From positions 1-43,066 of the IMG/VR virus record IMGVR_UViG_3300048128_000112: DNA of 43,066 nt; one strand, 5' to 3'. The notes under the pieces are model-generated. The model searched no databases. It saw nothing but the letters and a program-made list of their open reading frames with translations, and was not told the origin of the DNA. The position numbers and the translations under genes were made by a program. This DNA is from a virus. Below, one piece after another: positions 4,604 to 34,955 of the stretch. How positions within the stretch are numbered: the first letter of the stretch is position 1; every line of letters starts with the position of its first letter.

Positions 4604-5638
4604 ATGGCAGATCGAGTAACCCTGCGCAAGCAGGGATGGACCGCTGACTACATCTCACCGCTCACAGGCAAGCGACGGCAGGTTGTCGTCGAGTCTGAGG
4701 ACGCTGGCTGGGCCCTGATCCAACAGGAAGGGCAGGCCGCGGCTACTGCAGAGGACAAAGCACAGCGCACTGGCATCAGACAGGCTCCCGCCGCCCCGAT
4801 GGGCGGCTTTTCGCTGCAACAGGCCTGGGAGCTGTCCTGGGAACGCCGGTTTAAGGGCCAGGCATCGGCCCGCAGCGTTCAGACCAACTACGCGCGAATT
4901 GCCAAGTTCTTTGGCATCAGGACGCAGCTCGCTGCCATCTCCAACATCTGGTTCAACGAATGGCGGCAGTCAATGCTGGCTGAAGGGCTGAAGAACTCCG
5001 GCATAAACCGCATCACCTCCACCCTGCAATCAATGCGAGCTGATGCGCTGCTGTTTGGCCGGGTGACAGAACTGCCGCAGCTTCCCAAGACATTGCGCGA
5101 GACACGCATCCCGCCCCGGTTTCTGAGTCAGGAAGAGGTGAACCTGCTGGTGTCGTTTTTTCGTGCGAACAACGACCAGCAAATGGAGGACATGTTCCTG
5201 TTCCGGGTCAGCGAAGGATGCCGCTTTGAGGAGACGCAACGACTGACACCCAGAGATTTTGATTTCCCTGCTGATCAGGTCACGTTTTGGAAGACCAAGA
5301 ACGGCAGCCCCAGGACCGTGCCGTTGGTCGGTGTCGCCCGAGAGATAGGGAAGCGCCGCTGCGAAGGGAAGGGGGCTGACGAGCCGATCTTCACCTACTC
5401 GTACGTCCAGTGGAACAGAAGATTCACAGAGGCGAAGAGGACGCTGCGGCTGCCCGGCAGGGTGGTGGGCCACACGACACGCCACACGATGGCCGCCAGG
5501 GCTGTCTCAGCGAACGTGTCGACCCAGCTGCTGAAGCACTGGGGTGGATGGAAGAGCACTGCCGCTTTGGAGCACTACGCACACCTGGATACGCAGGGCC
5601 TGAAGCACATGCAGAAAGCGCTGGAATCGTTTGAATAG
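4604..5638 (+). CDS. int: Tyrosine recombinase (integrase), 344 aa
   Basis: It catalyses site-specific recombination between phage attP and a host attB. Residues about 5-45 look like an arm-type DNA-binding domain (GWTADYISPLTGKRRQV). About 68-165 is the SAM-like core-binding domain, and about 172-344 the catalytic domain. The catalytic set is complete: R207 (SEGCRFEE), K232 in the beta hairpin (KTKNGSPRTVPL), H290-x-x-R293, W316 in the histidine/tryptophan position (GGWKST) and the nucleophile Y325 (EHYAH). The ATG is placed by motif copy 4 just upstream. The gene lies between the winged-helix regulators and the RNA polymerase gene, the order known in marine cyanopodoviruses. The gap just downstream is the natural place for attP. 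Confidence 0.93.
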   Translation: MADRVTLRKQGWTADYISPLTGKRRQVVVESEDAGWALIQQEGQAAATAEDKAQRTGIRQAPAAPMGGFSLQQAWELSWERRFKGQASARSVQTNYARIAKFFGIRTQLAAISNIWFNEWRQSMLAEGLKNSGINRITSTLQSMRADALLFGRVTELPQLPKTLRETRIPPRFLSQEEVNLLVSFFRANNDQQMEDMFLFRVSEGCRFEETQRLTPRDFDFPADQVTFWKTKNGSPRTVPLVGVAREIGKRRCEGKGADEPIFTYSYVQWNRRFTEAKRTLRLPGRVVGHTTRHTMAARAVSANVSTQLLKHWGGWKSTAALEHYAHLDTQGLKHMQKALESFE

Positions 5639-17814: not shown

Positions 17815-20800
17815 TCAAGCCCCTTCCAGGGCGGCGATGCGTTCTTCTAGTTCTTCGTTCTTGGCGAGAACCTCTTGCAATGCTCTGGTCAATTTTGGAA
17901 TCAGCTTGGAATAATCAATGCCTTGCAGATCCGGCTGGCCGTTCTCATCAACTGCATCCTTTGTGCCGGTGACAGCGCCAGGGCAGATCTCCTGCAGCTC
18001 GTGAGCGATGAATCCTTCAAACACTTGGCCGGGAGCCCGGTCGGTGTATTCAAAGTTGACCAAGTTCATCGCCTTGATCTCGTCAACTGTCGACGGGAGA
18101 GGCGTGATGTTCTTCTTGATTCGATAGTCAGACGCCTGGCCAGTGATAACAATGTTGGCGTCGTTGATCTCAATGCTGCCTTTTGCCTGACCGTTCTTAC
18201 GCATCGAGATCAGATCACCATTGGTGCCTGTTCTGTTTAACGCTAGACAATCTCCATCCTTCCTTGATAGCACACAGACAGTGCCAGTTGTAGGACTAAT
18301 ACTCATTACTCCGCCAACGTCAGTATTACCGACACCTGGGAATACCTGAGTATTTGCGTATCCAAAGCGGAGATCTTTGTTGAAGTAGGTGTAACCTTGT
18401 GTTAGGTATAAAGGCGAGATGCTGTCGCCACAATAGAAAACAACGCTATGAGCACCACTAGCAAGGTTGCCGATTTGCAGTGTTGAGTTACCAACCGTCG
18501 TGAATAGACGATAGGTAACATCATTCAAAACATCCAAGGTAAGACCAGGATCGTTTTGATTAGGACGCGTGAGAACAATATCTCCACCTTCACCATTAGT
18601 GGAAGGCGGTGCGATTTTTAGGTTGGTGATTAACTTTGTGTCATTAAAGCCAATTTCAAGTTTCTTGCTTGCATTGCCTCCCAAGTTGCCACTATAAATT
18701 TCAAACCCACCAACGCCGTTAGAGCCTAGGTGCCAGCTGTGGCTCCAGTTGCTGGTGTTGTTCCCGAGCTGAAGGAAGCCGTATCCGCTGTCCACTCCAA
18801 GCTGGATATTGCCTTTGACATCAAGCCTTTCCTTTGGCAAATCTCGGCCAACACCTATATAACCGTCCCCTCGCACACGGAAGTAAGAGTTGTAAGAACC
18901 TTCGCTTGAATAAAGAGAGCCAACTTCAAAAGCAAGAGAGTCAGCACCTGCCCATCGGTTAGCTACAAACAAGCCGTGTTGATCGGCCGCATCATTGCAA
19001 TTAAGAACAGTGCCAGCAAATCCAAAGAACTGAGCCGGGTAATACTCAGTGCCGTTTTGCCCTTTCTTGAGTTCAAAAGGAACACGAGCGTCGGGCGTGT
19101 TGACGCCTACATTGCCGCCTGCAGGGTTGAGCGTTAAAGGCCTTGACCCATTGGCATTGTCTCTCGATTGCAGATAGGAACTAAAAGGATTTGCTGAATC
19201 AATTCCTAGGGCAAGTTGAACAGTGCCGTAGTCAAGATTTAAAATATCTGCTGTGTCATACGCGAGACTCGGCCTGGTGGCTGTATTGCTTTGAACGTTT
19301 AACGAACCAGCAGGGTTGATTGTCTTAATGCCAACGAGTCCGCCGAAATAGGAAGGGGCACTTCCATCTCCATAAAACGCATAGGTATTGCCGTTACCAG
19401 CAGCAGGCAAATTGCTCTTAAATCCATAAGAGGCTCTGCCGCTGTCTGCATAATCCGAACCAAAGTCACTATTGACCTGATAGCCAATAGCAACTTGCCG
19501 GCCACCGCTAACGTTTGCAGACTTGCCAGCAACATAGTTAATCGAAGTTACAATATCTTTGCCAGCATGGTCTGGAACTGTCGGGCAAACTGAAAGGCTG
19601 CTTTTATTCCCACTCGGAGCGACGTTGTAGATGTTGTCATCAAGTCTGATCCCGCCCCTGTGAGTGGTCGCCAGCTGGAAGGTGACCGGCTCAGTGAACC
19701 CTGTACTTCCCTTGCCAGGGACTGAAACATCAACCCAGGCGCCGTCGTTGTAGATATACAGACGACCACCGCCGTCATCAGTAGTCGTGTCTGCCCACCA
19801 CAAATCGCCTGCCTTTGGCGAACTTGGCTTGGTCTGAGAGATCTCTGCTGTTGCCTTTGCACCGTCGACATAGTCCTTGGTGGCGGCAGTAGTGCCAGCA
19901 TCTCCAGCAGTTGTTGACTTCGTCTTGATCGTTGACGTTGTCTCGATCGTTCCGTTGTTTTCAATCCGGACGTATTGGCCGCCAAGACCAATCCACAGCT
20001 CTGTGCTTGAGGTGTTGCCCTCATCCAGTACCTGCTGAATTGTTGGAGTGGTGTTGAGCGTCGTCAGCTGCGACGGGCTCATCAAGCCAGCGTTAGTGCT
20101 GTCGACTATCGGAATCTCTGCGTCAGTTCCGTTGGTGTTTGTGATCGTGCCTTTATCAGCCGCAGCCGTATAGCCCAGGTCAGAGGCATACGTCGGGGTG
20201 AAGTTATCCCATTGGTTGGTGTTGGCGTTCCAGATCAGACGACTGCCATCAGTGACAGTGCTCAGTCCTGTCCAGGCCGAGGTGCCATCAACAGTGTTGA
20301 CGTAGAAGTCGCCGTTGTTTGGGTTGCTTGGCTCAGCTGCAGTCGTCGCGTCGATCGCACCCTTGTAGGTGACGCCATCGCCAGGGTCTCCCTTGTCGCC
20401 TTTAGTGCCCTGCTCTCCTTTCTGACCAATAGGAATTCCAAACTGGAATTGCAAATCAGAGTTGGCGTCCTGCGACACCACTGCCGTTGGATCACCGACA
20501 ACATTGCCCGGCTTCAGCGGGACACTGGTGACCGTCGCAGAGGGAGTCTGCAGTCCTGGCGGCGGGCCAGGGTTGCCCTGGTCACCCTTGGTCTGAATCT
20601 GAACCCAGGCAGAACCGGTCCAGTAGTAAGTCTTCAGCGGTGATGCGGTGTTATCAATCCGCAGCTGGCCAACCTTGGTGGCAGATGCAGGACCAGTGCC
20701 AACGTGCTGCTTGAAGGCGGAGTCAATCGCCTTCTCTGACATCAGCCTGGTATCGCTGGTCAGAGCATTCGGGTCGTCTGTTGACTTGCTTTGCTCAACA

Positions 20801-21264
20801 GAAATCTCAGGCTTTTGCTTGTCAGTGTTGTCGACTTGAACCGGCAAGCCCTTGCTGTTGACTTCCAGAACAGCTGTTCCCCCACCACCGCCAGCAAGCG
20901 TGGTGATCTGATCTTCCAGCTCTTGGATGTTGTAAAGCCACTGCTTATCTGATTCGTTCAGATCCTCGGCAACGATGTAACTACCGTCTGCCCACTGAAC
21001 AATCTGCTTGTCTTCAGGGGTATCACGTTCAACCTTCAGCTCTTGCGTCGACGTTGGCGCCGTCCCAACCCTGATCAGCTGGTCTGTCACCCAGATGTAT
21101 TCATCACCTGTCGGAGTGCCATTCGTAATGACAGTCAGCGTCGTCGCTACACCGTTGTCAATGCGCTTGACGGTGACGTGATCACGGCTGAGGTAATCAA
21201 AGGTGATAGTGAACTCAACCTTCGAGCCGTCACCCGTGAACGTGTCGGTTGCGTAGCTTGACAT
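17815..21264 (-). CDS. T7-type tail fibre with collagen-like region and S74 chaperone (1149 aa)
   Basis: Residues 1-~120 are a T7 gp17-type N-terminal domain (TFTGDGSKVEFTITFDYLSR, LKVERDTPEDKQIVQW), which anchors fibres to the tail. About 230-300 has collagen-like Gly-x-y triplets (GDQGNPGPP, GEQGTKGDKGDPGDG). A long variable shaft with receptor-type repeats follows. The last ~105 residues are an S74 intramolecular chaperone with the cleavage dyad SDYRIKK (S1045, K1050), FIAHELQEI and a C-terminal coiled coil (EVLAKNEELEERIAALEGA). After trimer folding, the chaperone should cut itself off just before S1045. This is the main fibre, and its N-terminus docks to the tail tube proteins. Confidence 0.88.
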   Translation of the reverse strand: MSSYATDTFTGDGSKVEFTITFDYLSRDHVTVKRIDNGVATTLTVITNGTPTGDEYIWVTDQLIRVGTAPTSTQELKVERDTPEDKQIVQWADGSYIVAEDLNESDKQWLYNIQELEDQITTLAGGGGGTAVLEVNSKGLPVQVDNTDKQKPEISVEQSKSTDDPNALTSDTRLMSEKAIDSAFKQHVGTGPASATKVGQLRIDNTASPLKTYYWTGSAWVQIQTKGDQGNPGPPPGLQTPSATVTSVPLKPGNVVGDPTAVVSQDANSDLQFQFGIPIGQKGEQGTKGDKGDPGDGVTYKGAIDATTAAEPSNPNNGDFYVNTVDGTSAWTGLSTVTDGSRLIWNANTNQWDNFTPTYASDLGYTAAADKGTITNTNGTDAEIPIVDSTNAGLMSPSQLTTLNTTPTIQQVLDEGNTSSTELWIGLGGQYVRIENNGTIETTSTIKTKSTTAGDAGTTAATKDYVDGAKATAEISQTKPSSPKAGDLWWADTTTDDGGGRLYIYNDGAWVDVSVPGKGSTGFTEPVTFQLATTHRGGIRLDDNIYNVAPSGNKSSLSVCPTVPDHAGKDIVTSINYVAGKSANVSGGRQVAIGYQVNSDFGSDYADSGRASYGFKSNLPAAGNGNTYAFYGDGSAPSYFGGLVGIKTINPAGSLNVQSNTATRPSLAYDTADILNLDYGTVQLALGIDSANPFSSYLQSRDNANGSRPLTLNPAGGNVGVNTPDARVPFELKKGQNGTEYYPAQFFGFAGTVLNCNDAADQHGLFVANRWAGADSLAFEVGSLYSSEGSYNSYFRVRGDGYIGVGRDLPKERLDVKGNIQLGVDSGYGFLQLGNNTSNWSHSWHLGSNGVGGFEIYSGNLGGNASKKLEIGFNDTKLITNLKIAPPSTNGEGGDIVLTRPNQNDPGLTLDVLNDVTYRLFTTVGNSTLQIGNLASGAHSVVFYCGDSISPLYLTQGYTYFNKDLRFGYANTQVFPGVGNTDVGGVMSISPTTGTVCVLSRKDGDCLALNRTGTNGDLISMRKNGQAKGSIEINDANIVITGQASDYRIKKNITPLPSTVDEIKAMNLVNFEYTDRAPGQVFEGFIAHELQEICPGAVTGTKDAVDENGQPDLQGIDYSKLIPKLTRALQEVLAKNEELEERIAALEGA

Positions 21265-21288: not shown

Positions 21289-24200
21289 CTATTGTGCCCC
21301 GCCCAATGCTTCCGTCAAAGCTTTGACCTTTGCCTCTGCCTCATCCCTAATTGGTGACTGACCGGACTCAGTCAGCATCTCCATCTGCAGCGTTGCATTC
21401 TTCGCGTCATTCATCTCACGCCAACGCAGAACTGCAGGCGGAGCATCTTCCGTGTTCAGCATTTGCGCGGTCGTCATCTCCGCGTAATACCGCTTCAGTG
21501 CCTTCATCATCACGGCTGCTGGAACACGACGACGCTCAGCTCTCGGGGCATCAGTGGCAAACGACGTGGGCTCCATCCCCTCCATCGCTTGATAGATCGG
21601 GTCATTCATCAATGACCGCGCAGCCTCCAGCATGGTGTTGCCTTTGGTGTGCTTGCCCAGGAACAAGCGCAGATCAAGCGACAAAAGGGTCTTGTCGTCC
21701 TTCACCCTGACGCCAGAAGGGGTTGTGATGTCCAGGACCGGCACGCGAACAGTGAAGTTCGCAGGGGCTCCAATCACAAACGGATCCGTCGTTCCCTTCA
21801 GTGCTCCGTAGGTGTCGTTCCAAATCTTCTGCATGTCGTCCGTCATCGGCACGTCACGCAGTCGCTTGCTGATCAGCTCCTCCGGTGGGTCCAGCAGATC
21901 GAGGTAATCCAGCTCTGTGTAGACCTTGTCTTGTGGGTGCTCGCCTGGGGTGAAACGATGCTCCAGATAGGTCATCAAATCCATGCCCCAGGGCTTGCGG
22001 ATGTCGGTGCCCAGCCAATCCTTGTCCTTGTACTTGCCACCGAATGAACCCGCCAGGCCGGTGACGTTGTAAGCCGCATCACGAATACGACGCTCCCAGG
22101 TTTCCATCAGGTCAGTGGGGATGTCGTCGAAGTCCTGCTCAGTCCACTCTCCGTCTCTGTAGAGATCGGCTGACTGCGAATTAGAGGCTCGCTCAAGACT
22201 GCGCATTGGGCCGCTGGGTGTGTAGCGACCAGCTGCCAAATAGCCGGCCATGCCGCCAACCTTTGAACCCATGCCGCGATCGGCATAAGCGACATCCATC
22301 AGCTGTTGCACCTGGCCAATGGCAGAGCCCCTGGACAAGTAGCCCAACAAAACACCAGTGACCGCTTCGACCAGGTTCAGCTGGTCGTACTTGCTGAAGA
22401 ATGCACCCTCAACGTTGTCGACGATGTCCTGCATCATCAGCAGCGTGTTGATGATTGGGTAGCCACCACGCATCTGCACACCAGCAATGCTGTTCGGCTC
22501 CAGGCCGCGCTGCTTCTGCTTAATCACCCATTCACGGCGCTGCTCCTTGGGGACCGGGCCGTTACCAACGATCAGTCCACCGGCAGACAGCAGGCCAAAC
22601 ATCGCCCAAACATGGCCAGCCATGATCAGGTTTGCCTTGTTCCGGCGCACCTGTGATGGCGTCATGTCAGTAAACAGTCGACCGATGGCAGGCAGGCCCA
22701 TCATCTGCAGGTCAAAGCCAACTCCCAGGAACGGAGCCTGGAAGTAGGGGGCGACAGCCTCCACAAAGGGGAGCTGCTGCAAACGCTTGCCTGCCATGTA
22801 GGCATCACGCAGCGGACCACCGGGCTCGCCGGGGACATTGGCGAAACGCAGCTCATCGGAAAACTCCGATGCAATACGAGTCGTCTTGTTCGGCACCATG
22901 CCGCCGTATCGCTCACTGACACGGCTTTCCATGATCATGTCATCGATGCCCTGGTCGTCGAGCAGCTCAGGACTGATGCCCTGCTCACGACGAAACGCAA
23001 TGCGTTGCGCTTCTGTTGGCTCCAGACCGTAGAAGGATTCCATGAACTCCTTCTCGATCCATTCGTTCATTGCCTTCTGAGGATCAGCAGCGTCCTCGAA
23101 GTTCATCTGCTTGCCCTGCATCCGGGCTTTCATCTCCAGCTGATGTCGAACCCGATAGACCGAGAAGGTGAAGCCAGCAACGTTGTCGACAGCACCCATG
23201 GTCCGAAGGCCAGGGCGAAGCCAGTAGCTATTGCCGGTCTTCTCGTACATCCACAGGCGAACACCTGTGTGGAGGAGCTTCCCGTAACGCTCTGGATTGG
23301 CCAGGCTGGCCATGCGGCGAGCAGCGTTCTTGCCCTCTGCTCCCTTCATTGCCGCAGCCTGGAGATCCTCCAGCTCAGCGACAAGCTCATCAGGTGACTG
23401 ATACCGCTTGCCGTAAGTGTCGACGTTGTTGGCATACATCGCCTTGCCATCAGCAAAGGCGTCGACGAAAACCTCCTTGCCTGCATCCCGAACAGCTAGC
23501 GCTGCAGCACCAAGGCCTTCCCAGTTGGCAGCCCATGCCTGGGTCGTGGCCCGGCTGAGGTTGGTGCCTTCGATTTCCCTGAACTGCAGTAGGTCTTCGT
23601 AGAACTGCCGATACGGTCCGAACAAGGCCATGATCGCGTTGGAGCCCAGGTTCAGGAAGTTGGTGTTCTCGTTGAAGAGCTGCCAATCCTTGGTCAGCAG
23701 GTTGAACCGCTTCATGCGGTTGTAGTTCGTCTGCTGCGGGGTTTCCTTCCGTGGCTCAACACCAGTGATCCGGATGTTGTTTACCTCCAGCTCCAGCTGC
23801 GCAGCAGCAGCGGCTGGATCTGTTTGGGCCTTGTCGAGTGCTTCGAGGATGCGGCCAAACGACTGATCCTTGTTGAGCTGATCAGGAGTCAGCCGGGCGG
23901 CGGCATCTACTGATGCCTGCTCTGCTGCGGTGTCGACAATGTCGGCTGCTTCATCAACAGCACGAACGACATCAACGTCAGTGAATTCCATCAGCGGGCC
24001 TTCAAAGCCCCGGCCCTGGAGCGCTTGGCCGATACGGCCCCAGGCTCCGCGGACATGGTCGTAATGACGCTGAGCCATCAGCGCCACCTTGAACTGCCGG
24101 AACAGCTTTACCGCCTGCTCATCAGGCAGCTTGGCTCCAGGGTTGTTCCGAACAAACTCCAGGACGTCCCTGGCACCAGCGGCATACGTCTCCTTGGCGG

Positions 24201-24711
24201 TGTCATGGGCAAAGCGAAGGACGACAATGTCGTCGATCAATCCGGTGACACGGTCGCTGGAGTTGGCCATGACCCGCAGCCAGCCGCCAACGCTCCCACG
24301 TTCCGACAGGTATTGCAGCATTTGAGCCCGTTTCTTCGGGCTGCTGTAGCCCTTGAGCGTGAACTCCTCGGGCATGTTCTTGGCCCCAGCCTGCCTGAGG
24401 CTGTTGGTCAGAACGGCATAGTCCCGGACTACCTCCTCAGGGGCATCGCGAAGCTTCTGCTTGAAGTTGACCGGCTGGCCCTCGCCGATGTTGACCTTGG
24501 GCTTTTTCTTGACGCCTTCTTCTGCCGCAGCCCTATTGGCCGGGTCAGTCATCCCTTTCAGGGCATCAGCATTGGCTGCCTTGAATTCGTCATCTGACGG
24601 AACAGCGCGGCTGGCACGAATCTGATTGATCCGTGTCAGCTCAGCGTCGTTCTGCTGGCGCTCCAGGTCCAGCGCAAGTTTGCGTTGGAACAGTTCATCG
24701 CAACTAGACAT
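21289..24711 (-). CDS. Large internal virion/ejection protein (1140 aa)
   Basis: It is mostly alpha-helical and soluble, with Ala/Gln/Glu-rich N-terminal helices and a central hydrophobic segment (about 700-725, NLIMAGHVWAMFGLLSAGGL) that could insert into the membrane. No lysozyme or transglycosylase motif is visible. It directly follows the 1418-aa gene with a TGATG overlap and precedes the tail fibre. In T7 this position is held by gp16, a 1318-aa ejectosome protein. Here the gp16 position seems split into two large proteins. A role in the trans-envelope DNA-ejection channel is inferred from order and size. Confidence 0.7.
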   Translation of the reverse strand: MSSCDELFQRKLALDLERQQNDAELTRINQIRASRAVPSDDEFKAANADALKGMTDPANRAAAEEGVKKKPKVNIGEGQPVNFKQKLRDAPEEVVRDYAVLTNSLRQAGAKNMPEEFTLKGYSSPKKRAQMLQYLSERGSVGGWLRVMANSSDRVTGLIDDIVVLRFAHDTAKETYAAGARDVLEFVRNNPGAKLPDEQAVKLFRQFKVALMAQRHYDHVRGAWGRIGQALQGRGFEGPLMEFTDVDVVRAVDEAADIVDTAAEQASVDAAARLTPDQLNKDQSFGRILEALDKAQTDPAAAAAQLELEVNNIRITGVEPRKETPQQTNYNRMKRFNLLTKDWQLFNENTNFLNLGSNAIMALFGPYRQFYEDLLQFREIEGTNLSRATTQAWAANWEGLGAAALAVRDAGKEVFVDAFADGKAMYANNVDTYGKRYQSPDELVAELEDLQAAAMKGAEGKNAARRMASLANPERYGKLLHTGVRLWMYEKTGNSYWLRPGLRTMGAVDNVAGFTFSVYRVRHQLEMKARMQGKQMNFEDAADPQKAMNEWIEKEFMESFYGLEPTEAQRIAFRREQGISPELLDDQGIDDMIMESRVSERYGGMVPNKTTRIASEFSDELRFANVPGEPGGPLRDAYMAGKRLQQLPFVEAVAPYFQAPFLGVGFDLQMMGLPAIGRLFTDMTPSQVRRNKANLIMAGHVWAMFGLLSAGGLIVGNGPVPKEQRREWVIKQKQRGLEPNSIAGVQMRGGYPIINTLLMMQDIVDNVEGAFFSKYDQLNLVEAVTGVLLGYLSRGSAIGQVQQLMDVAYADRGMGSKVGGMAGYLAAGRYTPSGPMRSLERASNSQSADLYRDGEWTEQDFDDIPTDLMETWERRIRDAAYNVTGLAGSFGGKYKDKDWLGTDIRKPWGMDLMTYLEHRFTPGEHPQDKVYTELDYLDLLDPPEELISKRLRDVPMTDDMQKIWNDTYGALKGTTDPFVIGAPANFTVRVPVLDITTPSGVRVKDDKTLLSLDLRLFLGKHTKGNTMLEAARSLMNDPIYQAMEGMEPTSFATDAPRAERRRVPAAVMMKALKRYYAEMTTAQMLNTEDAPPAVLRWREMNDAKNATLQMEMLTESGQSPIRDEAEAKVKALTEALGGAQ

Positions 24712-27700
24712 CAGATGCAGCCCTCCAGCTCGGTTTCGGCAGCAAGCCTTTCTGTAAGTAAATCGAAGTCTTGCTGCTTTTGCTTCAAATACAGCGACAC
24801 ACGATCAGTTAGCTCAGGAAGCAATGCGTCCATATTGCTATCAATACGGCCCCGCATAGCTTCGAGCTGCTGTGGGGTGAGCTTCTTGATCTTGGTCTGA
24901 CCAGCACTGCCGATCTTGCCTTCTGCTGCAAGCTCGAAGACATCTACCCATGCGGGTTCTTTCTCCAGTGCGTAGCGCCACTTGCGCCGGAGAGTGTTGA
25001 TGAACTTCTTGATTTGCTCGAAGGCAGCCTGAACACCGCCAGCCTTCATCCGGACCTTGCGGTTGTTGTACCAAATAGCGAAGGCTTCAGCCTGCAATTC
25101 CTTGGCAGACATGCCTTCGACGTACTGGCCAAAGCGATTGTTCTTGACCAGCTTCGCCATTTCTGACAGGGCCTCGGGCTCATTGATGGCCTCGCCCATT
25201 GAGATGGCGTCCATGTCGACCTTGTTCGACATCCGTTCAAGCCATTCCTGAACGACATGGAATGCCTCGTGATACGCCACCTTGCCGAAAGGCAGCCGAC
25301 CACCACCGCTCTTCAGGCCTGGCGTCAGCAGGCGGTTATCCAGTGCGTCGGACATGGCCAGATAAACCATGGCCTGGTGCGCATTCGGAAAGTTGAACGG
25401 CACCATCACGCCCTGGGTTCTGCCGTCCAAGAACTCAGACAGCGGATCGTCCGGGTTCTCTGCCATGAAACGAGCAGCGGCTGGATCCCAGGCTTCTGTG
25501 CTTTGGATCTTGGCCTCCTGGCCAAACAGCTCGCCGATGTTGATCTCATCCAGATACCGGATTCTCAGTGGGTCTAACCCTGAGATTTGAGCGGCTTCTT
25601 TCAGGGCTTCGACCATCTCCTTGGCCAATTTCTCGCTTGCGCGAGCCATGCCAGCGACCGTGCTTGGGACCTTCAAGCCGATGTCCATCAGCTCGGCTTC
25701 CTTCTGCATTGCCTGTGCTTCCATCGCGCCCGCGTAGCGATTGCGGATTGCCGCTTCGCTGTATTCACCATCAGCACGGGCGGCTTGCGGGAACGACTTG
25801 GATGCCTGCACCTCAGAGCGGGGCACCTCAATCTCAAGCGCTTCCTGCGGAGCCTTCCGGCTGCCGGTCACGTCCTCGATTGAGTCCTGGATCTGACCCT
25901 TGATCTCAGCGCCAAGAGCCCGCACCTCAGCGATGTCAAAGCCTTGCTCCTTCAGAGCCTTGGTGATGGCAGCCTTTGTCGCCTGGGCCTTCTCGCTCTT
26001 GCTGCCGCTTTGCAGGATGTAGGCCGCCCGATCCAGATCGTCCTGGAAGGTGAGCTTTGCCATCCCAAAACGAGGCGATGACTTCTCGTAGCTCTTCGGC
26101 ATCGTGAAGCGCTCTGCCGGGTTGCTGATGCTTTCAGCCAAGGGGTCGAACTCATTGGCATAACCAGCGACTGGCTTCAGCAAACCGTTGGCCTTCTTCT
26201 CCTCGAAGGTCATCTCGTCGTACCCAATCGCGGCACGCTCGGCTTCGAGCTTGTCGCCAGCCAATGCGTTGTCGATTGCTGCGTACTCCTCGGTCAGCCG
26301 GGCCTCGTTATCAAGCACCTTCAGCAGGCCGACATCAGCACGGTCGTTGTCGACATCAAGCCGCCCTGGGTCAGGGCTGTCGACCAGCGGGGTAGACGGT
26401 GGCCGGGCTTCACCCTTCTCCGCTGCAGTCTTGGCGATCTTCGAGATCTTCTGGCGACGAGTCAGCTGAGGAGCCTCTTCAACCACCTCTTCCGCAACCT
26501 TGGCCGGAGCAGGGGTGCCTTCAGCTGCTTCGATCAGCTGACGACGGATGCGATCAGCAACAGGCTTGACCTTGGCACCATTGGCGATCTGCTCAGCCCC
26601 TTCATTCAGCAGCTGGCTGGTTGGGCCCTCGGTGTACTTGGTCGCATCGAACTCAGCCAGCAGCGCTGCGGTGTCATCAGCCAGCGTGCCGGTAGCGGCC
26701 TGGTCGATGTCGTTACCAACTTCCGTCAGGCGGTTGGCATTAGCTGCCGTCCGCTTCATCAGGTTTTTGTCGGCCATCAGATCCCTGCGGATCCGAGCGG
26801 CCAGCTCACCTTTCTGAACCATCAGGTTCAGCATCTCGGTGTTGCCGAACAGGTCGACTTGATCGCCCTGCACGGTGGATGCCGACCGGGCCTGCTGCAG
26901 CACTTCGTTGAATGCAGAGTCAGACAGATCACGGCTCAGCAACGCCTTGTATGCCTGCTGCATTCCGGTCTCATCCAGGCCGCTGCCCCCCAGGGCCAGG
27001 GCCTTGCCCTTGCTGATGCGACCGTCGATCGCGTCTTGGAAGATGTTGTCCGGCAATCCGCTCAGCGCCAGACCCTCAGTGGCCAGGCCTGACCGCAGCG
27101 GAATACCAAGGTTCTCAAGTTCAGCCGGGTCGGTGATGCCCTGATCCCGAATGAACTTGCCTGCATCAAATGCAGTGCCACCGCCCTGGGCGATGTTGGT
27201 CAAAGCACCCTTGGATCGGGCAGCCTCAGCAGTCGGGGCGTTGATGTACTCCACCCGCATCGAGGGAATACCCAGCTCCTTCGCCTTGGCCAGACGGTTG
27301 TGGCCATTGACGACATAGGTCTGACCATCCATCGGGTCGGTCCACACCTGGATCGATCCCTCCATGTCCTCGTTCCACACGCCCACCCCTGTGAGTGAGT
27401 TGCCCTTTTGCTGGCCTTGGGCGTCGGTGCCCATCTTGAACTGGAAGCGACCGGGATCCACTTGGATCTCTCCGACCGGCAGCATCGGAGCGCCCATCAT
27501 CCGGCTGGGCATCACTGACTGGCCTTTGCCTTCCAGCGTTGCGATGCCATTGATGATGTCGCTACGGGTGAACTGATCAGGACTGCGACCAGTGGCCTGC
27601 GTGATGGCCGCGGCCAACTCCGGGCTGTTGCCTGGATCAGCCAGAGACTTCAGCTCAGCTGTAGAAACGCCGCTGAACTGCTGGCTCTTGTCTGCGTTCT

Positions 27701-28967
27701 GCGGAAGGCTCTGCGTCGGAGCAGTGACCGACTCGTAACGCATGTCCGGATTGATGGCCTCCGGCTGCGCCCGTGCTGTCACCTCTTCGACGACAGCAGG
27801 AACTGACTCACCCTCAGAGCGGGTGATGATCTCGTCCAGATCAGCGTCACTGGCCTGACCCTCCAAGGTCTCCGTGATGGCGTCCACCTCAACGGTGGAA
27901 CTCAGCAGCTTCTCCTCGTCTTGCTGGATTGCGTCGGTGTAGCTGCTCTTGCCGGTGTCATCTGTCTGGATGACGCCATCGGCCTGCAGGTTGTCCCGTG
28001 CGGTCTGCCGTGATGTGCGAGCAGTGCGACTTCTAAGTGCTCGCTGACCAGCAGGCAATGCTGAGGCAAGACCACCCAGGCCACCCGCCAAGGTCAGCGA
28101 CGCTGCCAGGTTCGGGCCGAATGCCGCCATGGACGCTTCGGTCCGGCTCATGCCTGGCTTGACCGGCTCCAGGTTCTTGACCACCTCCGGGTCAATGCCC
28201 ATGAACTGCAGCAGCTGCACAGCACTGCCGCCCTGGTTGTCATCCAGGAAGGTGCTGGGGATTTCGTCAGCGACGTTGGCAGCACCAAAACGAACAGCAC
28301 CACCTAGCGCCGTCTTTGCCTTGGTCGCATCCAGGAACTGCAGCGACTTGGCCAGCCATGGGAACTTGGCCGCCAATGACGTGCCTGCAAGGGCATTGCC
28401 AACGCCACCAGTGGCGAATGCCAGGGCAGCATTAAGCACCAACGACGAACGGAAATCGTCGCCAGCAAGCTGCTCCTCGGTCATCTCCGAGGGAGGGGTG
28501 AAGCCGTTGGTCCGATAAAAGTTGTCAAGGTCGTTATCGATGTCCCCCTCAAGCCCTGGCGACAGCATTCCTGTCGGCTCCAGCACGGCCTTAGTCGCAT
28601 TGCCAATCGCCTTCTTGGCACCCAGCTTCAGGGTGTTGCGACCTGCCTCACCCGCGAAGGGGGTCGCCGCATCGATGGCGTAGCTCTGGACGCGGGGCAG
28701 TGCCGTCTCCAGATTGCTGAGCTGCTTGAACTCGTATTCAATGTCGTTCTTCAGGTTGTCCATCCCGCCCAAACCGGGGATGTATCGACCACCGGGCACC
28801 TGCTCCCACCAGGGCCGCGTCTCCCGCTCCCGCTCAGTGCGTTCCTTCTGCTCAGGCTCTGGCAGTGGTGCCATCTCCGCTTCTGGCGGCTTGGCGACGT
28901 TGTTGTCATCAGGGGCAGGGCCCTGCCACCCCCACTCCCCATTGGCCGGGTTCAGTTCAAAAGGCAT
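24711..28967 (-). CDS. Giant ejection protein with ParB-like and HExxH peptidase domains (1418 aa)
   Basis: About 1-320 is Pro/Glu-rich then Gly/Ala-rich, with hydrophobic helices (LVLNAALAFATGGVGNALAG) suited to membrane insertion. About 495-600 has the ParB/DdrB-type signature: MLPVGEIQVDPGRFQF, YVVNGHNRLAKAKELG (550-566), NIAQGGGTAFDAGKF, then IPLRSGLATEGLALSGLPD. Near the C-terminus a zinc-peptidase motif HEAFH lies at 1233-1237, with a likely third ligand E1294 in LQAEAFAIWY (gluzincin spacing). ParB-like plus metallopeptidase domains together are typical of 'polyvalent' proteins that mobile elements inject to counter host defences. It lies in the gp15-gp16 region of the operon, so it is probably packaged and ejected with DNA. 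No function is proven. Confidence 0.75.
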   Translation of the reverse strand: MPFELNPANGEWGWQGPAPDDNNVAKPPEAEMAPLPEPEQKERTERERETRPWWEQVPGGRYIPGLGGMDNLKNDIEYEFKQLSNLETALPRVQSYAIDAATPFAGEAGRNTLKLGAKKAIGNATKAVLEPTGMLSPGLEGDIDNDLDNFYRTNGFTPPSEMTEEQLAGDDFRSSLVLNAALAFATGGVGNALAGTSLAAKFPWLAKSLQFLDATKAKTALGGAVRFGAANVADEIPSTFLDDNQGGSAVQLLQFMGIDPEVVKNLEPVKPGMSRTEASMAAFGPNLAASLTLAGGLGGLASALPAGQRALRSRTARTSRQTARDNLQADGVIQTDDTGKSSYTDAIQQDEEKLLSSTVEVDAITETLEGQASDADLDEIITRSEGESVPAVVEEVTARAQPEAINPDMRYESVTAPTQSLPQNADKSQQFSGVSTAELKSLADPGNSPELAAAITQATGRSPDQFTRSDIINGIATLEGKGQSVMPSRMMGAPMLPVGEIQVDPGRFQFKMGTDAQGQQKGNSLTGVGVWNEDMEGSIQVWTDPMDGQTYVVNGHNRLAKAKELGIPSMRVEYINAPTAEAARSKGALTNIAQGGGTAFDAGKFIRDQGITDPAELENLGIPLRSGLATEGLALSGLPDNIFQDAIDGRISKGKALALGGSGLDETGMQQAYKALLSRDLSDSAFNEVLQQARSASTVQGDQVDLFGNTEMLNLMVQKGELAARIRRDLMADKNLMKRTAANANRLTEVGNDIDQAATGTLADDTAALLAEFDATKYTEGPTSQLLNEGAEQIANGAKVKPVADRIRRQLIEAAEGTPAPAKVAEEVVEEAPQLTRRQKISKIAKTAAEKGEARPPSTPLVDSPDPGRLDVDNDRADVGLLKVLDNEARLTEEYAAIDNALAGDKLEAERAAIGYDEMTFEEKKANGLLKPVAGYANEFDPLAESISNPAERFTMPKSYEKSSPRFGMAKLTFQDDLDRAAYILQSGSKSEKAQATKAAITKALKEQGFDIAEVRALGAEIKGQIQDSIEDVTGSRKAPQEALEIEVPRSEVQASKSFPQAARADGEYSEAAIRNRYAGAMEAQAMQKEAELMDIGLKVPSTVAGMARASEKLAKEMVEALKEAAQISGLDPLRIRYLDEINIGELFGQEAKIQSTEAWDPAAARFMAENPDDPLSEFLDGRTQGVMVPFNFPNAHQAMVYLAMSDALDNRLLTPGLKSGGGRLPFGKVAYHEAFHVVQEWLERMSNKVDMDAISMGEAINEPEALSEMAKLVKNNRFGQYVEGMSAKELQAEAFAIWYNNRKVRMKAGGVQAAFEQIKKFINTLRRKWRYALEKEPAWVDVFELAAEGKIGSAGQTKIKKLTPQQLEAMRGRIDSNMDALLPELTDRVSLYLKQKQQDFDLLTERLAAETELEGCI

Positions 28968-28970
28968 TGA

Positions 28971-31157
28971 TCAACCAGCAATGGGGCGGGAATAAGAAGG
29001 AGCAGTGCCGCTCAAGATGTTGAGCAGCACGCCAGTGGATTGCGACAAGGGGCCCTGCGGTGGAGCCATCGAAATCAACGACTCATGCAGGCCCATCGAA
29101 CGATTGGACATCTGCAAAATCTTTTTCCGCATCGGCTCGGGAACTTCCAAGCCCAGCAGGTATGCCTCGCGAAGCATGAACTCACCTGGCGTCATTCCTG
29201 CTGCAACAGCAGAACGCCTCACTTGAGTTGGCAACGACGAGCCATTCGCGATGGCGCCCAGCATCTCGGTGACATCTGTTGGCTTGTAGACCGGAACGTT
29301 TGCCCGGACTGCCTCAGGCGGAACTGGTTGTGATGGCGAGTAAAACTCCGTGACCTTTTGCTGCTCAGCCTTCGCCTCTTCAGCAGGGGCTTCTGGCAGC
29401 GGCAAGTAGCTGTTCACGTTGTTTTTCCAGGTCTCCTCCCAGATCTCTGACTGACGTTCAGGTGTCAACGGACCACCGTTAGCGGCAGTCTCCTGACGGA
29501 TCGCTCTGGCACCCTGGCGGCGATACATGCCCTTTGCGGCCGCAATCCTTTCCGCCGCTGCCGCATCAACAGAGCCCAAGTAGGCGATCAGATCTCCGCC
29601 AGGGTTTTCGTTCATCCATCGGATTATTCCCACCCCTTTAGATGGGAACTCCTTCTGAATTAGCGCCTTGACCTTTAGGTCGACCTGCTCGTTCATCATC
29701 GAGCTATCCAGCTCGCCGCTCTGCTCACGACGCTTGTCCTCTCGCAGAGTCCTCCACCGCTTCTGCAAGTCCTGGCGGACCTGCTGCGGTGCTCCTTGGA
29801 TCAACTGGCGGAAGCGCTTGTTTGCATCGCCTTCGTTCCAATCAGAACCGAAGGCTTCTTCCTGCTCCATGAAGAAGCTGCTCGTTGCCTGCGGATCAAA
29901 GGTGACGCCCTGCCATTCCTCAGCCTGCTCCGACTGATCGATCAACGCCTCCCTCAGCTCGGCATCACTCAGGGCGTCGTATTCGGGCATAGCCCTCAGC
30001 TGCTCAAAGGTCAGCTGCCAGCCAGGGGATGTGGGATCCATCCCGATCGTCGACTCGAATGACGGGTCTTCACCCAGCACATCGATCGCCAGATCCTTCT
30101 CGTTATCCCTGATCGTTTTCAGGTCACGGCTGATGTCGGCCTGGCCTGAAAGCAGATCAACGCCATAGGCCTCACCAACAGAGATTGCATTCCCCTCCGT
30201 ATCGGTCAGACCGCTTGGCATCCCATTCAGGTAATACAAAGCACTGGTGGCTTGCTGCTTCGTATCGGGGTTTGCCTGCATCAATCGCAGACGCTCAGCC
30301 GCAGCCACGATCGCTTCACGCGTCATCTTCTCTGGCTCACCAGACAAGCCGTAACGAACAGCTGAATTAGTCAGCACATCCGCCCAGCTGTCCGGGGTTG
30401 CACCACCGGGCTGGAGCAACAACGACACCAACGCATCAGTGGTTTGCCGAGCACCGACTTCCTTGTCGTATGCCACCCGACCTTTGTATTGCTCGTTCTG
30501 AAACCACTCCCAGCTCTTGTTCAGCGTGGGGAGGACGTAGTCCTGAAAACCAGGACTGAATTCATCCAACCCAAAGCTCGAAGTCAGCTGATTCGTCACC
30601 CTCGCCTGGACGGCCATGACCCGTGGGTCAGACGGATCCAGCTTCCGCAGATCACCGCCGAGCCTCGCCCACTCCGCCTTGAACATTGCAGGCGTCTGAG
30701 TCGCCACCCACTTGCTTGCCTGATTAACCCGGCCCGCTTGCCTGAACGGGTTGGCCTGATCCATCAGGATCCCGGCGACCGGGTTCTGACGATCTAACTC
30801 TCGGTTCTGCTCGGCATAGGCAACGCTCTTCTGTTGCTGGTCGCGGTTGATGTTGGCCGCGGCCTTCAGGATTTCGTTCTGGCCTTTCTTGTATTCATTG
30901 GTGGCGTAAAGCTGCATTCCTGCATCGGCCACCTTTGTGAGTGGGGCCAATGCTTCACTCAGCTCTTGCAGCGGATTGACGCCCTGGACGTCACGCATCG
31001 CGCCACGCTGAATGCCAGTAACTCGTGAGATCTGCCCAAGCTTTGATGGTTGGGCAGGTGCTGCTGGCTTTGAGTTGGCGTCAAAGTTCAGGAATGAACT
31101 GACTGGATTAGCGGAAGGCTGGAGGCTTCCTGCTTGTAGCCGTTGTGGTGCTGCCAT
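28971..31157 (-). CDS. Internal virion protein, gp15-like (728 aa)
   Basis: It is helical and Gln/Arg/Glu-rich, without membrane segments, and about the size of T7 gp15 (747 aa). That protein forms the periplasmic part of the ejection channel and contacts DNA. Landmarks include KKGQNEILKAAANINRDQQQ near residue 90, RQNPVAGILMDQANPFRQAG, and a C-terminal SLISMAPPQGPL linker. It is coupled by TAATG to the gp14-like gene upstream and separated by three bases from the 1418-aa gene downstream. The assignment rests on size, composition and operon order; residue-level homology to gp15 is weak by eye. Confidence 0.75.
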   Translation of the reverse strand: MAAPQRLQAGSLQPSANPVSSFLNFDANSKPAAPAQPSKLGQISRVTGIQRGAMRDVQGVNPLQELSEALAPLTKVADAGMQLYATNEYKKGQNEILKAAANINRDQQQKSVAYAEQNRELDRQNPVAGILMDQANPFRQAGRVNQASKWVATQTPAMFKAEWARLGGDLRKLDPSDPRVMAVQARVTNQLTSSFGLDEFSPGFQDYVLPTLNKSWEWFQNEQYKGRVAYDKEVGARQTTDALVSLLLQPGGATPDSWADVLTNSAVRYGLSGEPEKMTREAIVAAAERLRLMQANPDTKQQATSALYYLNGMPSGLTDTEGNAISVGEAYGVDLLSGQADISRDLKTIRDNEKDLAIDVLGEDPSFESTIGMDPTSPGWQLTFEQLRAMPEYDALSDAELREALIDQSEQAEEWQGVTFDPQATSSFFMEQEEAFGSDWNEGDANKRFRQLIQGAPQQVRQDLQKRWRTLREDKRREQSGELDSSMMNEQVDLKVKALIQKEFPSKGVGIIRWMNENPGGDLIAYLGSVDAAAAERIAAAKGMYRRQGARAIRQETAANGGPLTPERQSEIWEETWKNNVNSYLPLPEAPAEEAKAEQQKVTEFYSPSQPVPPEAVRANVPVYKPTDVTEMLGAIANGSSLPTQVRRSAVAAGMTPGEFMLREAYLLGLEVPEPMRKKILQMSNRSMGLHESLISMAPPQGPLSQSTGVLLNILSGTAPSYSRPIAG

Positions 31158-31969
31158 TAGCCGCCTCCTTTGTTGCCTGAATTGGCGATGCCGGAAAGGC
31201 TTGTGTAAGTGCTCATGCCTGCACTGACTGCACCCAGGGCGCTGCCCAGGAATGCAGTGCCGGCATTAGGTGCTGCACCGGTAAACGACGGACCAGCCGG
31301 ATTGACCAACGTGGCCAATGGCGGGAACGGTGCGATCGGATCAAACACCTGCTGCTCCTCATAGAGCTGCTGGCTGTTGTATCGATTCAGGTATGTCGCG
31401 ATTTGACCCGCAGACTCCCGCGTGAACTGTCGATCACGGAACTGCTGATTTAGCTGCTGCATCGTCGTCATGTCACCCACCTGCCGGGCGTAGTCATTGA
31501 CGTAGCGATCAACGTTTGCCCCTTCTTGACCAGCAGCTGTGACTGAAGCCGCAGAACGCAATGCCTGCTGCTTGTACTGCATCAGCGAGACGGCATCTGC
31601 CATCGACTGCTGCGAGAAGTTGTCGACCAGGGCCTGTGACTCAGACGCATAACTTGCGCCAGCTGATGCCCGCACACGGGCGACCAGCTCTGCCTGATTG
31701 ATTGATTTCGACAGCTCGTAATTCCGGGCCTGATTGGCATAAGCCAATTCCTGCCCGTAATTGATCTTTTGCTGCCAATAGGCATAGGAGTTGTTTAGGT
31801 CAGCAGTCCTTGCCTGATTGCTTGCAGACCACGCTGCAAATTCATCGCTGGCTTTTTGCCGCGCAAGATTATTGGCGTGCTCCTGCTGCTTGGCACCAAA
31901 ACCAAGCGCTCCCTGCGCAAGCGTGAGACCGCCAGTAATTAGGGCACCTGTAAACGGATCAAGGACCAT
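31157..31969 (-). CDS. Internal virion protein, gp14-like (270 aa)
   Basis: An N-terminal glycine-rich hydrophobic helix (FTGALITGGLTLAQGALGFG) could span the outer membrane. A long Gln/Ala/Asn-rich helical middle (about 30-200) follows, and a Gly/Ala/Ser-rich hydrophobic C-terminus (AFLGSALGAVSAGMSTYTSL). This is the pattern of T7 gp14 (196 aa), which forms the outer-membrane pore of the ejectosome. Both ends overlap the neighbouring genes (TGATG and TAATG). It is longer than T7 gp14 because of the extended helical middle. Confidence 0.8.
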   Translation of the reverse strand: MVLDPFTGALITGGLTLAQGALGFGAKQQEHANNLARQKASDEFAAWSASNQARTADLNNSYAYWQQKINYGQELAYANQARNYELSKSINQAELVARVRASAGASYASESQALVDNFSQQSMADAVSLMQYKQQALRSAASVTAAGQEGANVDRYVNDYARQVGDMTTMQQLNQQFRDRQFTRESAGQIATYLNRYNSQQLYEEQQVFDPIAPFPPLATLVNPAGPSFTGAAPNAGTAFLGSALGAVSAGMSTYTSLSGIANSGNKGGG

Positions 31970-32418
31970 CAGCTATCCCTCCAGAAGTCGCAGAACAATG
32001 CGGCGCTTGGGCCCATTGGATAGGGATCGTCAACCGTAAAGCCGAGATGTTTCAGCCAACGGATTGAATCGGTGTTCTTGGAATACACCTGATTGAACAA
32101 CGGGCCCCCCAATTCCTCTAAGCAACTGTCCACCCATTTTCGCCCTTCAACGCATAACTGCCAGCGAGCACGACGACTCTCCGTCAACCGGTCAGTTCCC
32201 AGCATCCAAATCCGATGCCCTACGACCCCGCAGAGGCCACATGGCTCGCCGTCGTCTGTCGCCATTCCTTTGACGACAGTGGACTGCGCCCAGCTTTCGG
32301 TAACGGCTTCTAGAGCTGAGCAACCATGGCTCAGCATCACCTCCTCGACATCAGCTGCTCTGAGGTTTTCAGCCACCACAAGGATGTGATCGGCACTTGG
32401 CTTGTCGACCCACTGCAT
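31969..32418 (-). CDS. GNAT-like protein, T7 gp13-like (149 aa)
   Basis: It has the acetyltransferase-like (GNAT) outline of T7 gp13 family proteins. Strand/helix AVTESWAQSTVVKGMATDDGEPCG precedes CGVVGHRIWMLGTDRL, then a helix ESRRARWQLCVEG, and a final NTDSIRWLKHLGFTV segment. The last matches the GNAT motif B pattern 'N..a...ye..GF'. A clear acetyl-CoA P-loop (Q/RxxGxG/A) is not seen, so catalytic activity is doubtful. It sits between tail tube B and the gp14-like gene, as gene 13 does in T7, where the product is needed for correct assembly of internal proteins. Confidence 0.78.
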   Translation of the reverse strand: MQWVDKPSADHILVVAENLRAADVEEVMLSHGCSALEAVTESWAQSTVVKGMATDDGEPCGLCGVVGHRIWMLGTDRLTESRRARWQLCVEGRKWVDSCLEELGGPLFNQVYSKNTDSIRWLKHLGFTVDDPYPMGPSAALFCDFWRDS

Positions 32419-34955
32419 CAGGAGGCCCCCGAGCGGCTAGTGATTCCGCCGATCCACTCGACAGTGCTGAACTTCGATGGATGCGGACTGTCGTTCAACA
32501 ACTCCACCATCACCCGATCACCACGCCCCATGATTGGAATGTTGAATACGCCCTCGTAATAGCGCGGGGTATCAGGCTTCATCATGTTCACGGGCTGGCC
32601 GATTGATGCTCCTCGGACAGCACTCACCGTGCCGTCAAATGTATAAAGACCATCCTTGCGATGCTCTGGCATCGTCTTGGCCTGGAAGAAGCCAGACTCG
32701 TGATAACCAAGCTTTGCCTGCTTCACCTGTGTGCGAACAACATTGCGAGGTGCTTTGCCCCCACCAATGTCTTGCATCAACTTGAAACGAGAGAAGCGAT
32801 AACGGAACTCATACTTTTCTCCAGCCCAAACATCCTCATTGCTCCAGTCACCGCGAGCAGTAACAGTCGTCCCAGATTTCGTTGAACCCAGCAGAACAGG
32901 CCCAGGCTTGGCTGTGCTCTGGGGATTCATGTTGTACGCCGACCAAACCTGCACCTCGTTCGTCGCCTCGTATTTCAATGTGAACGTGGTCTCGTTTTTC
33001 TGGGCGTCGTAAGAGCCTTTGCCCATCCGCATCGGGAAAGGTGTTGCTGTTGTCGTTCCAATTAAACGATCAAGCAACAGCGGATACGGAGCAAATACAG
33101 CTTCCTCCGCTCTATCAAGAACTGAGATTGCCTCTAGATAAATGTCGTTGCCATATCTCATCAAGCAATAAAGGATTTCACGAATGCAAACGATCTGCAG
33201 TATCTCGTCAGCACCAAACTCCCAGTAAGACCAACTGTTTTGTACTCGCTCGGCACCACTGCCCTGATTCCGCAAGAACCACTTGTAGGTGTAGATCCGC
33301 TTGCGGTAGTCAATCGGTATGCCATTGGTGACGACCTTGGAGCTAACCATGAAGGCAGAATTGCCTGCATCGTTGATCGTCATCTTGAAGCAGTCATCCG
33401 GGATGTAGGACGACACATATCCAGTCAAATCAGCAGCATCTGCAGTCAGGGCAGTACCTGCACCACGAACTGCAAACTCACGCATCTGTGACCACTGGCC
33501 ATTGGACTGCATAAAGAAGATGCCGCCACCTGCCTGTTGTGGCCTGACATTCACGTCGACGTCAAAGTTCGTCAGCACCGTGATTTGTGCTGTCGCTGGA
33601 GTCAGAACCGTTTCCGCTGCATTAAACCGGAACTGGATCTGAGTAGAGAACAGGATTAGTTCGTCTTGGTACGGGACTGCATACCGCAGAACGGAGACCC
33701 TGTTATTGCTAGCCACAACATCAATAGGATCAGTATCCAAGACTGTTGTGACTGTTTCCGGGAAGAACTCAAAAAATTCTCGAACTCTGCTGAGCACAAC
33801 ATTTTCATCAGCCAGGAATCCGAGCCGGTTTTTGTAGATAAAGATGTCGTTAATCGCATAGCCAATAAACGATGGGTCAGGGACTGTGTCGTAATCACCA
33901 GAAACCCGCTCGCCCCATTCCGGCACGTTGTTGGGAATACCATTGACCACTTGGCCCTTAACTGCACCAAACCAAAACTCTCCATTCGTCTTGCGGATCA
34001 AGACGTGAGGCATCGTTTCTGGATCGATCTTGTACTCGACGCCAGGCGATACGGTTTCGGCCCATGCACCTTCACCGAAATTGCCACTGCGAGGCTCAAA
34101 CTCGACGTAATAGTTGTCAAATGCAGTGCCCGGATCACCGGCAATTTCTATCTGATAACCAACAGGGGCGATCGTTGGCAACTCCGTAAAGGCCTGCACC
34201 TCATCCAGGATTGCAGTAATCGTGGCATTAGCCTTTGCGTCAGTCGCTGAAACTGTGATTGGATTCGCTCCGTGAATCCAGAGGACAGAGCCAGAACGCT
34301 CAATCGTATAACCAGTTAGGCCAGCTGTTCCCAGCCCTGTTTTGATTGATTCCGCGATCTCCTCTGAGCTGATTCTGTTCTCCGTAACGGTGCTGCCATT
34401 GGTCACAACTGCAGCAACAGGAGTCTCAACTTCTACGGTGTTGCCATTCACCGTAACCGTATATTTGTTGCCATAGACCGCCTGTTTTACCCAGACCAAA
34501 CATTCATGTGGGTCTGGCCTTGCAGTCTTCGGAGCGACTGCTGAATCCATCGCCGTCGCTTTCAGCGTGTTGGTGATGAAGGTGTAATCAGCAATCGTGA
34601 CAGCACGAATCTGCTGTCTCGCATTAGTGACCGTGCTCAGGTAGTTGAAGGCATTCGGGTCGGCAGTAACGACTTGCGCTGCGCCATCAAGGTCAAAGAC
34701 TTTGATCTCTGCCTTTGCAATGATTGCAAGGTATTCCTCCTTCTCGTCCCTCAGGATCGTGTGAAAAAAGGCGTCACCAAAAGAAGTGGTGCTGACCTTT
34801 GCCAACGTCCTGCTGCTGTCTCTCTTCCTCAGCCCCTCCGCAATAGACGACACCCCATTGATCTGGATCTCGCCCTGGCTCGGGTCACGCTGAGCATCAG
34901 GCTGCTGACTGATCCCCTGGATGAGGTTGGGGATCGTTACTGCGACGTTCTTCAT
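32418..34955 (-). CDS. Tail tubular protein B, gp12-like nozzle (845 aa)
   Basis: It forms the distal tube (nozzle) of the short tail. The N-terminus IPNLIQGISQQPDAQRDPSQG is the unmistakable family start, followed by a long beta-rich body (GSVLWIHGANPITVSATDAK, LIFHRDAV-type loops absent) and a C-terminal segment GRGDRVMVELLNDSPHPS with STVEWIGGI. Length is slightly above T7 gp12 (794 aa). Start and stop overlap the neighbours (TGATG both sides), so tail tube A, B and the gp13-like protein are translated as a coupled series. Confidence 0.93.
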   Translation of the reverse strand: MKNVAVTIPNLIQGISQQPDAQRDPSQGEIQINGVSSIAEGLRKRDSSRTLAKVSTTSFGDAFFHTILRDEKEEYLAIIAKAEIKVFDLDGAAQVVTADPNAFNYLSTVTNARQQIRAVTIADYTFITNTLKATAMDSAVAPKTARPDPHECLVWVKQAVYGNKYTVTVNGNTVEVETPVAAVVTNGSTVTENRISSEEIAESIKTGLGTAGLTGYTIERSGSVLWIHGANPITVSATDAKANATITAILDEVQAFTELPTIAPVGYQIEIAGDPGTAFDNYYVEFEPRSGNFGEGAWAETVSPGVEYKIDPETMPHVLIRKTNGEFWFGAVKGQVVNGIPNNVPEWGERVSGDYDTVPDPSFIGYAINDIFIYKNRLGFLADENVVLSRVREFFEFFPETVTTVLDTDPIDVVASNNRVSVLRYAVPYQDELILFSTQIQFRFNAAETVLTPATAQITVLTNFDVDVNVRPQQAGGGIFFMQSNGQWSQMREFAVRGAGTALTADAADLTGYVSSYIPDDCFKMTINDAGNSAFMVSSKVVTNGIPIDYRKRIYTYKWFLRNQGSGAERVQNSWSYWEFGADEILQIVCIREILYCLMRYGNDIYLEAISVLDRAEEAVFAPYPLLLDRLIGTTTATPFPMRMGKGSYDAQKNETTFTLKYEATNEVQVWSAYNMNPQSTAKPGPVLLGSTKSGTTVTARGDWSNEDVWAGEKYEFRYRFSRFKLMQDIGGGKAPRNVVRTQVKQAKLGYHESGFFQAKTMPEHRKDGLYTFDGTVSAVRGASIGQPVNMMKPDTPRYYEGVFNIPIMGRGDRVMVELLNDSPHPSKFSTVEWIGGITSRSGAS

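Follow-up and report, generated by a model that had tools for sequence, protein, structure and literature searches.

A ParB-type module and a likely zincin-type peptidase module in a gp16-slot ejection-type protein of a marine T7-like phage

A 1418-aa protein encoded by a marine T7-like phage constitutes the N-terminal half of a split gp16-slot protein, as assigned by its position, and judging from its sequence it is most likely of the polyvalent type and probably ejected together with the phage DNA. Structural modelling strongly supports the assignment of its central module to the ParB superfamily, while its C-terminal module is likely a zincin-like peptidase. In the explanation that we favour, with a probability of roughly 0.6, this N-terminal half of a gp16-type ejection protein is built as a polyvalent protein that enters the cell, where cleavage by the zincin module would free the ParB-type domain with its helix-turn-helix (HTH).

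The window, by which we mean the whole stretch of DNA that was analysed, is one entire IMG/VR entry of 43066 bases. Its source is an Autographivirus; among named phages, those closest to it are S37C6 (Oinezvirus) and S31C1 (Nohivirus), both known from Mediterranean fosmids. A tyrosine integrase (4604-5638, plus strand) adjoins the T7-type RNA polymerase (5819-8260, plus strand) and S37C6 likewise has an integrase near its T7-type RNA polymerase; the phage is a temperate-looking Autographivirus. A search of the 43066-base window for tRNA genes, as a clue to the host, returned none.

The gene of interest (24711-28967) was delimited correctly by the first-pass annotation, lies on the minus strand and begins with ATG. 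It sits within a tightly packed minus-strand run of virion genes, in which the preceding gene stops 4 bases upstream and the stop codon of the 1418-aa open reading frame overlaps the start of the next gene (TGATG). All genes of this run are on the minus strand. Within it, the nozzle or tail tubular protein B (845 aa, 32418-34955) is followed by a 149-aa homologue of the T7 internal virion protein gp13 (31969-32418, hhalign probability 95.9), a 270-aa protein assigned to the gp14 slot by gene order (31157-31969), a 728-aa protein assigned to the gp15 slot by position only (28971-31157), the 1418-aa protein, a 1140-aa protein forming the second half of the gp16 slot (21289-24711) and finally a T7-type tail fibre that ends the gp12-gp17-like block (17815-21264). 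A pectate-lyase-like protein (16076-17785, minus strand) adjoins the fibre and may serve as a further receptor-binding protein or as a depolymerase. The order from nozzle to fibre is repeated across dozens of related contigs and can be compared with the T7 order of gp12, 13, 14, 15, 16 and 17; the gp15/gp16 position proposed earlier is right and can be narrowed to the gp16 slot.

In the P-SCSP1 Prochlorococcus phages, both halves of the slot form a single 2571-aa protein, with whose C-terminal half the 1140-aa protein aligns (hhalign probability 82.5). The P-SCSP1c version (ULF49604.1), annotated as hypothetical, shares with the 1418-aa protein its slot, the ParB module and an HExxH module (HESFH), and differs in that one gene covers both halves. 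Cryo-EM models of P-SCSP1u comprise capsid, portal, adaptor, nozzle and fibre, and the slot protein is absent from the modelled set (PMC10575957). Comparisons by hhalign found no homology to T7 gp15 or gp16 in the slot proteins, neither half of the slot resembling T7 gp16, and the term 'gp16' is therefore a positional assignment. What the 1418-aa protein has in common with T7 gp16 is its location between the gp15 slot and the fibre and the presence of hydrophobic segments, in this case two weakly hydrophobic Gly/Ala-rich stretches (aa 175-194, 28386-28445, Kyte-Doolittle score 1.49; aa 287-305, 28053-28109, score 1.38; both minus strand). It differs in lacking sequence similarity and any transglycosylase match, and in the division of the slot over two genes. 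In a side observation, the gp15-slot protein of Synechococcus phage S-SRP02 (L117:10977-13883) is annotated as an N-acetylmuramoyl-L-alanine amidase; it has no Pfam match at E <= 0.01 and matches the family of the window's 728-aa gp15-slot protein along its length.

The whole 1418-aa protein gave no useful direct match in Pfam, NCBIfam or the PDB, and the single sequence matched nothing among viral contigs; homologues in those contigs were recovered with domain alignments instead. The ParB module (aa ~496-820, 26508-27482, minus strand) is predicted to comprise a ParB-type N-domain, an HTH and a helical block. Residues 496-816 (26520-27482) match PHROG 21 at 1.1e-45, a match that covers only the last quarter of that family, which bears the name 'portal protein'. 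PHROG 21 is also matched in the loci L047, L063, L071 and L078, and proteins that match it solely in the ParB block may carry a wrong 'portal' name. Searched against the PDB, a four-sequence profile of the domain retrieved ParB chains only (E 0.03 and 0.2). An AlphaFold2 model of the module, built with 59 homologues, reached a pLDDT of 92, and Foldseek aligned aa ~496-700 of it with Myxococcus and Caulobacter ParB, Noc and RK2 KorB at a probability of 1.00 over ~210 residues, covering the N-domain as well as the HTH. The target-normalised TM-scores to these chains are modest, up to 0.59, as a differing hinge angle between N-domain and HTH would produce. The first-pass annotation had placed YVVNGHNRLAKAKELG in a ParB-like context, and these searches uphold it: the segment is ParB box II (aa 551-566, 27270-27317, minus strand), as located in the translation and the 59-sequence alignment.

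Boxes I-III occur in order, followed by the HTH, as in the ParB/Noc/KorB superfamily, whose architecture of an N-domain fold and then an HTH is reproduced in the model. The boxes kept in the 59 sequences read DPxRFQ[YF]K, DGxxYVVNGHNRL and GAxxNIAxGxGTxxDAAK, with Q509, K511, G555, H556, N591, G597 and D601 invariant. Canonical ParB proteins carry GERR and ENxxR at these positions. Neither GERRxR nor ENxxR was found in the module, which has GHNR and NIAxGxG in their place, themselves invariant or nearly so, and these alterations make CTP use by the predicted module doubtful. The modelled fold is that of ParB, and its site is under constraint. It differs from its relatives in these rewritten boxes (GHNR, NIAxGxGT) and in being embedded in an ejection-type protein. 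In locus L053, a homologue in which the module is present twice gives a match to ParB partition PHROGs at 6e-8. Six loci in bacterial genome records also have the module, among them loci from Nostocales (cyanobacterium HT-58-2, L123), Pseudanabaena (sp. SR411, L124) and Leptolyngbyaceae; these are perhaps prophages.

The C-terminal module (aa ~1102-1361, 24885-25664, minus strand) contains the motif HEAFH (aa 1233-1237, 25257-25271, minus strand), predicted to supply zinc ligands and the general base, and Glu1290 (25098-25100, minus strand), predicted to be the third zinc ligand. The pairing of HEAFH with a downstream Glu had been noted earlier and withstood alignment: H1233, E1234, H1237 and E1290 are all invariant in 31 homologues of 16-63% identity, although the alignment rows were picked by HExxH alone, which leaves E1290 as the sole independent test of conservation. 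Any HExxH arises in only 0.08% (0.0008) of shuffled versions of this His-poor protein. Counterparts of the motif read HESWH in S31C1 and HESIH in Ruegeria phage 45A6. The model of the module has a pLDDT of 78 overall, mostly above 90 in both motif helices, and in its topology a long helix and three strands precede the helix that carries HExxH, after which come the Glu helix and further trailing helices. This is the order given for polyvalent metallopeptidases (MPTases) in PMC5512222, and the topology fits a zincin. Fold searches were weak, with anthrax lethal factor as the best PDB match (E 0.12, probability 0.35) and large phage proteins as the best viral matches (E 0.047); anthrax lethal factor is likewise the reported match of the N4 vRNAP MPTase (PMC5512222). 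Profile searches of the PDB and Pfam produced no convincing match across the HExxH motif and no known peptidase family profile. A conserved HExxH with a downstream Glu is one mark of a zincin-like MPTase, and we consider the peptidase assignment likely on the strength of motif, conservation and topology, while fold and profile searches were weak.

The mixture of ParB and HExxH peptidase domains proposed from the sequence thus stands for its ParB part, by fold and by profile, and in its kinship with polyvalent proteins; the peptidase part has motif and topology in its favour, with the family profile unmatched and the metallopeptidase fold weakly matched. That kinship is illustrated by a 3912-aa protein of Ruegeria phage 45A6 (L003:7018-18756), which combines the ParB module with helicase, methyltransferase, GNAT, HExxH and LPD38 modules. 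Its common modules tie the 1418-aa protein to recognised polyvalent proteins; the Ruegeria protein is itself annotated as hypothetical. The ParB module also occurs, in two copies, with MuF and a Zeta toxin in a 1740-aa head protein (L053:6004-11223). ParB-superfamily and MPTase domains are among the main hubs of polyvalent proteins (Iyer et al. 2017, PMC5512222), and the 1418-aa protein shows three traits of that class: a late gene that joins at least two enzyme-type domains of unrelated function in a single polypeptide, a location among virion genes, and modules shared with recognised members. What sets it apart is its place in a T7-like phage, where it occupies the ejectosome slot; neither 'T7-like' nor 'gp16' occurs in the main text of PMC5512222. 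The polyvalent class has been known since 2017 (PMC5512222). As far as the literature searched shows, the ejectosome-slot location, the ParB type and the allele system described below are new; that search, which covered few subscription papers, found the general concept and no description of this arrangement.

The description of the protein as 'DdrB-like' did not survive comparison. In phage P1 DdrB, too, a ParB-superfamily domain precedes an HExxH domain at the C-terminus, and DdrB offers a head-packaged precedent, but the hhalign probability against it is 3.2 with the ParB module and 0.7 with the zincin module, and no profile or sequence match from the 1418-aa protein to DdrB or its Pfam family was found. 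The fold is instead that of the canonical ParB/Noc/KorB N-domain and HTH. Furthermore, the box is GNGR in P1 and GHNR here, and P1 is a myovirus in which DdrB is a head protein.

Related phages differ in whether the slot protein bears these modules at all. The equivalents in S37C6, Synechococcus phage S-SRP02 and S38C3 align at aa ~190-508 and 824-963 (profile numbering being that of the 1418-aa protein in the aligned chassis region) and skip both aa 508-824, the ParB block, and the zincin block. The chassis segment common to relatives lacking both modules spans aa ~824-966 (26070-26498, minus strand). Loci were collected via the nozzle and gp14-slot gene in order to avoid selection on the modules. 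Among 34 nonredundant complete slot proteins, ten carry both modules, four ParB only, two zincin only and 18 neither, these bare proteins measuring 906-1084 aa. The nozzle tree implies nine changes of the ParB trait and seven of the zincin trait, and supported branches alone require at least five changes of the bare state; on the chassis tree, all bare proteins fall in one fully supported clade and ParB changes only twice, both trees being quick ones with some long branches. The simplest reading of these sequences is that two old alleles, armed and bare, have been passed whole from one phage backbone to another, single modules having in some cases been lost later, and the modules look like optional cargo of a probably injected protein. 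Co-occurrence of ParB and zincin modules (Fisher p 6e-4; median p 0.125 in an underpowered phylogenetic pair test) was rejected as proof of functional coupling. As the bare alleles all group together in a single clade of the chassis tree, the association is mostly due to common descent; it mainly reflects one shared armed allele and is not independent evidence that the modules work together.

The favoured explanation starts from the slot, the two modules, their invariant catalytic-type residues, the polyvalent kinship and the armed and bare alleles, and from these we infer packaging, ejection, cleavage and action on DNA. The chassis, weakly hydrophobic in two segments, would bear the ParB N-domain and HTH together with the C-terminal HExxH...E zincin-like module. 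The protein would travel in the internal core and leave it along with the gp14- and gp15-slot proteins when these are ejected, whereupon the chassis would engage the inner membrane with the two modules facing the cytoplasm. On that side, the zincin module may cut the protein of which it is part, or another target close by, and the ParB/HTH module, once freed, would bind DNA during entry. T7 gp16-C is thought to be cytoplasmic and DNA-binding, clamping the incoming genome near 850 bp (PMC8954989), and MPTase domains have been proposed to cut polyvalent proteins into working pieces, the processing ideas for P1 DdrB and the N4 vRNAP MPTase being precedents (PMC5512222); it is the combination of these two proposals that leads us to favour release of the ParB/HTH module by the zincin module. 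In a bolder version, which strikes us as decidedly unlikely, the ejectosome has a nucleotide-gated DNA clamp in the form of its ParB/HTH module, which would grip the entering genome from the cytoplasm, as T7 gp16-C has been proposed to do, and would be set free by the zincin module after the start of entry. If true, a chromosome-segregation clamp would have been adopted as a brake or ratchet for genome entry.

Other fates for the two modules can be envisaged. The protein is possibly, though on balance improbably, an effector of anti-defence or host takeover, the zincin cutting a host protein and the ParB module nicking or binding host DNA or consuming nucleotides. Among the polyvalent proteins for which a role in conflict has been proposed, both domain types act as hubs (PMC5512222), the ParB module is found with a Zeta toxin and both modules with helicase, methyltransferase and GNAT domains. 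The swapping of armed and bare alleles among backbones, expected of a host-dependent trait, equally fits recombination without selection, and no known anti-defence family was matched and no known target emerged. Nothing in these results favours anti-defence over self-processing or a DNA-entry role. An assembly role, in which the zincin trims the core protein in the head before or during packaging, ParB/HTH packs the core against DNA and neither acts in the host, we consider unlikely: proposed trimming of P1 DdrB provides a precedent (PMC5512222), and the ParB module is also fused to a MuF head protein and present in the PHROG 'portal protein' family, but the 18 of 34 same-slot phages devoid of both modules presumably still assemble. 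A reading of both modules as functionless remnants that serve as spacers while the ejection protein evolves quickly would agree with the absence of single modules from some relatives; the invariance of the H, E, H and E residues in 31 sequences down to 16% identity, and of ParB Q509, K511, H556, N591 and D601 in 59, makes this very improbable.

The ejection proteins of T7-like phages are known chiefly as channel parts. The present analysis depicts the gp16 slot as a site of two exchangeable alleles, one bare and the other equipped with two modules, a DNA-binding one of ParB type and one resembling a peptidase. As cultured Prochlorococcus MED4 phages are armed and a cultured Synechococcus phage is bare, delivery, self-processing and host dependence are directly testable.
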